DNA of 50,435 bases from Methanobacteriota archaeon (lineage in GTDB: Archaea; Thermoplasmatota; Poseidoniia; Poseidoniales; Thalassarchaeaceae): NCBI GenBank assembly GCA_002725315.1, contig PBOL01000010.1:1-50435 (forward strand), given 5' to 3'. Of the stretch, positions 17,374 through 19,365 are shown in pieces. The notes beneath the pieces are model-generated. The model had not been told where the DNA came from, searched no databases, and worked only from the letters and a program-made list of their open reading frames with translations. The translations under genes were made by a program, and so were the position numbers. Every line of letters starts with the position of its first letter. Position 1 is the stretch's first letter.

Positions 17374-18528
17374 ATGTCGTCAGAATGGCCGCCGGAGGAA
17401 GTTAGTCTGACTACCGGAAAGAGGGTTCTTTTCCTTACCAAGGACATGGAGCTTATTCGAAAGCAGTTGTATGATGGGCTTGACCTTAGGATGGAGGACT
17501 TGTCGGTAGATGACCTCATGGACGACATCAATACTGACGTGATGACCCCAGCATGGGTATGCTTCGATCACGAGCCAGCAATAATCGCGGAGAACGCATA
17601 TGCAGGGCTAATTCACGAAGGGAGGAGGGTCTTCGAGCCTAGATCCCTAATTGACGGGGAGTTCGAGGTTATTGTTTCTGGGCATCGGAAGGGGACAGGC
17701 TCTAGCAGAGAAACTGCAGCTCAATGTGAGAGGTGGTCAGGAATCAGGATCGTGATTGCGGCATCATTTGCCCCTATTCACGAGCGCAACAATCTGAATC
17801 TGGGGCAACTAATGGGGGATCATTCCGTCCTAAAGAGGCTTCAAGATGGGGAGGGGATTCCTCTGTCTGAGTTCACTTCCAAGTACGACCAAGTAAGCGG
17901 ACTGATATTGGAGAGTGGGGGGATCTTACCTTTCGCAAAGAAGCTGAAGGAGGGTTCCATTGTTCTCCCAAAGAATACCACTGGACCCCGAAAGATGACA
18001 ATGGTAGAGAAGATAGTTGCAAACAAACTACTCGGAACAGAGGGGGGTTCTGGATTTGTAAAGCCCGGGGACGCGGTGTTGGCCCGAGTGGATGGTGGAT
18101 ATTCTCACGAGTTCACTACCGCCCAGGTACATACATTTCTGGAAGAGGAATACGGGCAGGACTACAGTCTTCCGAACCCCCCAAAGTTCGCTGTATTCGA
18201 AGACCATCTGCTCTATGCAACGGGAGTACCGAGGTTTGGTAGGTTCGAGGACAAGATCCAGAATCTTAGGGACATGCAGGTAGAGTTCCAGAGGCATACT
18301 GGGGTCCGGGACTATTCAGCTGAGAATGGGGTAAGTCCGGGAATCTGCCATCAGGTGGCCAGAGAGGAGTTTATCGATGTTGGTGACTTCATCCAAGCAA
18401 CCGATTCACACACCTGCATGGGAGGAGCATCAAATGCTCTAGCTTACGGAGTTGGCTCTACAGAGTATGCAAACCTGATACACAACCAATTTGCGTTCCT
18501 CAACGTTCCAGAGAGCATTCGGTTTTAG
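17374..18528 (+). CDS. Aconitase-family hydro-lyase, N-terminal part (swivel domain plus start of catalytic domain; ends at an in-frame TAG)
   Basis: 384 residues of an iron-sulfur hydro-lyase. The swivel domain comes first (about residues 50-165): DINTDVMTPAWVCF and the catalytic-serine loop GHRKGTGSSRETAAQ. The catalytic domain then begins with MTMVEKIVANKLLG (about 209), GFVKPGDAVLARVD, DHLLYATGVP and the active-site DSHTCMGGASNALAYGVGSTE. The swivel-first order is that of AcnB, not of AcnA. The frame stops with TAG in the middle of a conserved segment, VPESIRF-stop-LVGRLDPGCTAKDV, and carries on in the same frame. Whether the substrate is citrate (aconitase) or isopropylmalate is not certain; icd nearby favours aconitase. 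Alone, this part lacks the iron-sulfur ligands and should be inactive. Confidence 0.85.
   Translation: MSSEWPPEEVSLTTGKRVLFLTKDMELIRKQLYDGLDLRMEDLSVDDLMDDINTDVMTPAWVCFDHEPAIIAENAYAGLIHEGRRVFEPRSLIDGEFEVIVSGHRKGTGSSRETAAQCERWSGIRIVIAASFAPIHERNNLNLGQLMGDHSVLKRLQDGEGIPLSEFTSKYDQVSGLILESGGILPFAKKLKEGSIVLPKNTTGPRKMTMVEKIVANKLLGTEGGSGFVKPGDAVLARVDGGYSHEFTTAQVHTFLEEEYGQDYSLPNPPKFAVFEDHLLYATGVPRFGRFEDKIQNLRDMQVEFQRHTGVRDYSAENGVSPGICHQVAREEFIDVGDFIQATDSHTCMGGASNALAYGVGSTEYANLIHNQFAFLNVPESIRF
18526..18528 (+). other. In-frame TAG codon inside the aconitase-family reading frame
   Basis: Codon 385 of a frame that is otherwise continuous from 17374 to 19365 (664 codons with the final TAA). The residues on both sides join into a normal family segment with one residue replaced, so nothing is inserted or lost. 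One base change from AAG, GAG or CAG would create it. No ribosome site precedes the following TTG. Confidence 0.9.
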
Positions 18529-19365
18529 TTGGTTGGGAGATTGGATCCCGGGTGCACCGCCAAAGACGTCATTCTTCACATTCTTTGGAAGTTTGCAGCG
18601 AACTCAGATACCTTGGATAGAAGCATGGAGTTCGGTGGACCGGGTCTAGCTAGCCTGTCGATGGACGAAAGAGCCACCTTGTGCAATATGGCAACTGAGT
18701 GCAGCGCGAAGACGGGGATTTGCGAAGCAGACGATAAGACAGTAGAGTGGTTGAAGTCCAGGCGCTCTAGCACTTCTGAGGAAGACATCAGAGGTGCGTT
18801 CGTATGGCCAGACGAAGGTGCAGAATACGATGGGGGGATTCATGAAATCGACCTCTCGAAAATTCGGCCCATGGTGGCTCATCCAGGAAACCCGGACGAA
18901 GGGGTCCCCTCGGATCCGACTAATGGCGCATATATCGATGAAATCGGCGAAGTTCGGATAGACATAGCCTACGCAGGATCTTGTACAGCTGGTAAGGATG
19001 ATGACTTCTCCTATTACGCGATGGTCTGCGAATCTGCGCTCGAATCTGGGCTAACCATTGCTGAAGGGGTGGACTGTTACATCCAGTTTGGCTCTAAATC
19101 TGTGAAGGAGCTCGCTAGCAGAATGGGCTGGACTGAAACTTTCGAGAAGGCCGGTGTGAAGTTGATTGATCCTGGATGTGGTGCGTGCATAGGTGCTGGT
19201 CCTGGTGTGAGTGAGAGTGCCGAACAGGTAACTGTCTCAGCGATTAACAGAAACTTCCAGGGCCGTTCTGGACCAGGAATGCTCTACCTTGCTAGTCCAC
19301 TTACTGTGATGACAAGTGCATTCACTGGAAAAATTACTTCTTGGCACCCTGATGTATTCTCCTAA
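18529..19365 (+). CDS. Aconitase-family hydro-lyase, C-terminal part with the iron-sulfur ligands
   Basis: 278 residues continuing in the same frame after the TAG. It begins LVGRLDPGCTAKDVILHIL, the normal continuation of the catalytic domain. The three [4Fe-4S] ligands are all here: AGSCTAGK (Cys 152 of this part) and DPGCGACIGAG (Cys 217 and 220). The usual SCTN-x-R motif reads SCTAGK, so the substrate-contact Asn and Arg are Ala and Lys. An independent start would be the TTG directly after the TAG, with no ribosome site, so separate translation looks weak. Either this is the second half of a gene broken by a nonsense change or sequence error, or the product is made by read-through. Ends in TAA, 57 bases before top6B. 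Confidence 0.85.
   Translation: MVGRLDPGCTAKDVILHILWKFAANSDTLDRSMEFGGPGLASLSMDERATLCNMATECSAKTGICEADDKTVEWLKSRRSSTSEEDIRGAFVWPDEGAEYDGGIHEIDLSKIRPMVAHPGNPDEGVPSDPTNGAYIDEIGEVRIDIAYAGSCTAGKDDDFSYYAMVCESALESGLTIAEGVDCYIQFGSKSVKELASRMGWTETFEKAGVKLIDPGCGACIGAGPGVSESAEQVTVSAINRNFQGRSGPGMLYLASPLTVMTSAFTGKITSWHPDVFS

Follow-up and report, generated by a model that had tools for sequence, protein, structure and literature searches.

RESULTS

A single in-frame TAG interrupts an aconitase-family gene

The window, a stretch of 50,435 nt, is contig C31 of a 1.41-Mb genome (81.6% complete) that is most closely related, among named archaea, to Candidatus Thalassarchaeum and other members of Marine Group II. 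According to its sequence and the list of its ORFs, it contains an open frame from 17374 to 19365 with a sole interruption, the TAG at 18526–18528 (Table 1). The initial annotation had described this frame as broken by that TAG only, and both adjacent ORFs agree with the description: an ORF of 384 aa (17374..18528; ATG start, TAG end) is directly adjoined, in the same frame, by one of 278 aa (18529..19365; TTG start, TAA end). The read-through product of 663 residues aligned end to end with the proteins of intact relatives and was gap-free at the TAG site. The flanks of the stop join to the normal family segment with one residue replaced, as had been claimed; this is residue 385, which is Glu in most relatives. 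Past the TAG at 18526, 278 codons are open, compared with 0 to 40 past the 11 TAGs that end other ORFs in the window, and an open frame of this length is far beyond chance.

Table 1. Parts of the interrupted aconitase-family gene in the window
Feature	Coordinates	Strand	Description	Basis
5′ part of interrupted gene	17374..18525	+	Swivel domain (LeuD/Aconitase_C-like) at the N terminus, then the first part of the aconitase core; GTGSSRE, DSHT	Pfam; alignment with solved chains of aconitase and of LeuC type
In-frame TAG, codon 385	18526..18528	+	GAG in nearest relative	Sequence; codon comparison
3′ part of interrupted gene	18529..19365	+	Remaining aconitase core with Fe-S cysteines; true stop TAA 19363–19365	PF00330 positions 172–463

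Identity of the encoded protein

The protein belongs to the aconitase superfamily, both domain models of which exceeded their gathering scores. Specifically, PF00330 (cut-off 28.7) scored 51.4 bits in the 5′ part (profile positions 20–169) and 223.4 bits in the 3′ part (positions 172–463; E 7.7e-66), while PF00694 matched residues 99–146 with 46.7 bits (cut-off 22.8). The swivel loop GTGSSRE (residues 107–113, including SSRE at 110–113) and DSHT (344–347) lie 5′ of the stop, and the cysteines of the iron-sulfur motif (C537, C602, and C605, aligned to solved chains) lie 3′ of it; all of these are invariant among 19 family members. The three Fe-S cysteines, the DSH motif, and the swivel SSRE loop that mark the superfamily are accordingly all present, and the earlier observation that the stop divides the catalytic parts stands. 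None of the named NCBIfam families (AcnA, LeuC, HacA, and others) scored over its curated cut-off, the best being PRK00402 with 290 bits vs 385, and the best solved relatives were the large subunits of isopropylmalate/citramalate isomerase and of homoaconitase. Judging from its motifs, the intact protein would be a [4Fe-4S] hydro-lyase with both domains in one chain and the swivel domain first. A second PF00330 protein, which is intact, is encoded on contig C25 of the same genome, and LeuA_dimer found no match in that genome. The structure predicted for the read-through protein from 19 sequences (mean pLDDT of 51) was too poor for use or for a structure search.

Swivel-first, one-chain proteins of this kind are nearly universal in the archaeal family, where they occur beside a second PF00330 protein and score below every NCBIfam cut-off. 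A study of archaeal fusions and fissions (PMC11237513) treats AcnA as a two-subunit fusion and also deals with technical fissions that arise via gene fragmentation; its passages on AcnA and on fissions contain no description of the window gene.

Codon 385 is a sense codon in the relatives

A family-wide search of 148 genomes found the gene in 131 of them, with an internal in-frame stop only in the window's copy. The protein of the nearest relative, G004, is 90% identical and has GAG as its codon 385, so one G-to-T change suffices to produce TAG. Among 29 aligned relatives, codon 385 was mostly GAA or GAG and in two cases GAT, and no stop was seen. A second collection of 80 loci, drawn partly from the same genomes, contained GAA (47), GAG (18), AAT (9), AAA (3), and GAT (3), again with no stop within the gene. 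The comparison with related genomes that the initial annotation had proposed therefore yielded a sense codon in every relative examined that has position 385, and the stop is private to the window's genome at the species level. The solved relatives carry Asn, Asp, or Lys at this position, so residue 385 is not among the fixed catalytic ones. Viral contigs searched by exact pattern contained no copy of the TAG site.

Two observations on the relatives are recorded here in their own right. A record labelled Candidatus Peregrinibacteria (L106) encodes this same Marine Group II aconitase-family gene (79% identity) and probably comes from a mislabelled or mixed genome. Two genomes, G003 (contigs C21 and C58) and G114 (C11 and C27), each contain two full-length aconitase-family copies of differing identity, which may represent contamination or paralogues.

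Constraint before and after the stop

Apart from the TAG, the 663 codons show no decay. At positions conserved in nine near relatives, the window's copy carries private changes at 7 of 309 positions before the stop and at 2 of 219 after it (P = 0.32), i.e., with no excess downstream; the same count for G004 gave 5 before the stop site and 5 after (P = 0.35). Similarly, dN was low on both sides of the stop. The lack of downstream decay implies a late origin of the stop, an error, or read-through.

We also found broken copies in two other genomes of the same genus. The copy in G001 (L190, G001:C26) has an out-of-frame deletion of ~140 bases and that in G005 (L191, G005:C23) one of approximately 56 bases; neither is accompanied by a run of N, and each is either a real loss or an assembly scar. 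Damaged copies of the aconitase-family gene are not unique to the window's genome among these drafts. The neighbouring gene for topoisomerase VI B served as a control; across 55 genomes it lacked any true internal stop, five "internal TGA" matches being an artefact of a query that began upstream of the conserved Met. Within the genus, 3 of ~22 aconitase-family copies were damaged vs 0 of ~22 for topoisomerase VI B, a difference that is not significant (P = 0.23); it is possible that occasional loss or frequent misassembly affects the aconitase-family gene. In two genomes of one genus (G044:C66 and G053:C7), the segments that match residue 306 and residue 321 of topoisomerase VI B are separated by 387 bases, which lie in an open frame and may represent an intein or an added domain.

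Internal stops elsewhere in the genome

The ORFs of two relatives were set against the window plus 20 sampled stretches (~389 kb, overlapping slightly), and the homologous coding segments compared came to 141,663 bases. Within these segments, no internal stop other than the TAG of the aconitase-family gene was convincing, and we saw no reading frame that was split. Five further stops were rejected: three lay upstream of the likely start, one lay near a C-terminal end in a poor alignment, and one fell in an ORF of 174 aa that is probably no gene. Over the 29 kb syntenic with G004, the same TAG was the sole internal stop in any full-length gene match. A scan for interrupted genes by codon score missed the known aconitase-family case and was replaced by the ORF comparison. 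The assembly is not error-rich in the part tested, and the case is an isolated one, compatible with a true allele or a single wrong base.

TAG is an ordinary terminator

The initial annotation had counted at least eight other genes ending in TAG; we found that it terminates 11 of the 37 ORFs in the window taken as genes. For 6 of these 11, a syntenic orthologue in G004 terminates at the same residue or close to it, in two cases with TGA or TAA. No match to PylS exceeded the TIGR02367 cut-off in the window's genome (81.6% complete) or in its relatives, while one control genome scored over it. None of the 38 tRNA places in the window's genome (81.6% complete) has a CUA anticodon, with the proviso that the model could overlook a tRNA-Pyl of unusual form. 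The 121 nt of RNA around and after the stop had no unusual structure (z = 0.47). One of the 38 tRNA places, missed by ARAGORN (L061; G000:C8:53991-54092), was read by eye as a tRNA-Tyr gene with an intron after its anticodon, GTA.

A search for pylS, tRNA-Pyl, and further TAG-interrupted genes had been suggested beforehand; it detected neither PylS over the cut-off nor a CUA tRNA in the window's genome (81.6% complete), and the 142 kb compared contained no further internal stop that was convincing. Together with the routine use of TAG at gene ends, these results uphold the earlier view that global reassignment of TAG is unlikely, and the TAG in the aconitase-family gene is probably not decoded.

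DISCUSSION

It is very likely that the TAG is a private nonsense codon, being either a nonsense allele that arose very recently in the strain or population sampled or a base error in the reads or consensus, and we regard these two origins as about equally probable. A single G-to-T substitution would have changed Glu codon 385 from GAG to TAG in one genome sequence and left the gene otherwise intact. If the stop is real, translation would end after 384 residues; because the cluster cysteines are located after the stop, no working [4Fe-4S] enzyme would be expected from the window gene, and the separate aconitase on C25 would remain. The initial annotation had listed a private nonsense mutation, a sequencing or consensus error, read-through or amber recoding, and a genuine two-piece enzyme as explanations, and had held that sense codons in all close relatives would point to one of the first two. 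As regards the relatives, all those examined have a sense codon, so that the first two explanations are supported and the other two are not.

Amber read-through or local recoding, in which an amino acid inserted at TAG 18526 would give the full 663-residue enzyme, would be expected to leave just such constraint as we see, with the frame intact for 278 codons past the TAG and no excess of private changes, and residue 385 does tolerate change (Glu, Asp, Asn, and Lys in relatives). However, the TAG codon is common to no relative examined, it is a routine terminator in the window, the RNA around it is structurally unremarkable, and the sampled coding sequence holds no other convincing internal stop; PylS over the cut-off and a CUA tRNA were likewise not found, although either could fall in the part missing from the genome. 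We therefore consider this explanation very improbable, and a shade less probable still is fixation of the TAG in the species with decoding through an undetected suppressor or efficient read-through, which would supply full-length enzyme at a regulated level.

A two-piece enzyme, assembled from residues 1–384 and from another protein whose translation begins at TTG 18529 or close by, is comparably remote. Both pieces are intact with every motif present, and the TTG lies directly 3′ of the stop, but a split at this site occurs in no relative among the gene-bearing genomes of the family (131 of 148), the stop falls inside a conserved stretch of the core domain, and the 20 bases upstream of the TTG (CAGAGAGCATTCGGTTTTAG) contain no obvious ribosome-binding site. 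Overall, recoding or a two-piece enzyme is unlikely. Least probable of all is an old pseudogene in the window's lineage: the second aconitase that remains in the genome and the out-of-frame deletions, lacking N runs, in the copies of two other genomes of the genus would suit such a history, whereas the 663 codons are undecayed except for the TAG and constraint is equally strong before and after it. A private nonsense codon remains the preferred reading.

Had this TAG been fixed and translated, it would have spoken for amber decoding by archaea of Marine Group II, but nothing found here points in that direction. The case mainly calls for caution: when a conserved gene in a draft genome from the environment contains just one stop, recoding or fission should not be read from it unless relatives have the stop too.

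In comparison with known systems, the window gene resembles the genes that methanogens and related archaea decode with pyrrolysine at TAG, in that it is an archaeal metabolic gene with this codon in frame; unlike those systems, it is not a methylamine methyltransferase gene, its relatives carry an ordinary Glu, and neither PylS over the cut-off nor a CUA tRNA was detected in its genome (81.6% complete). Its core and swivel domains and [4Fe-4S] cysteine motifs are, by sequence, like those of archaeal isopropylmalate/citramalate isomerase (LeuC/LeuD) and homoaconitase (HacA/HacB), from which it differs in carrying both domains in one chain, swivel first, and in having all of its NCBIfam scores below the cut-off. 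With the private nonsense alleles and consensus errors of environmental draft genomes, it shares the single in-frame stop, the sense codon in all relatives examined, the absence of decay, and the one-base difference from the relative's codon, and nothing distinctive sets the window gene apart from them.
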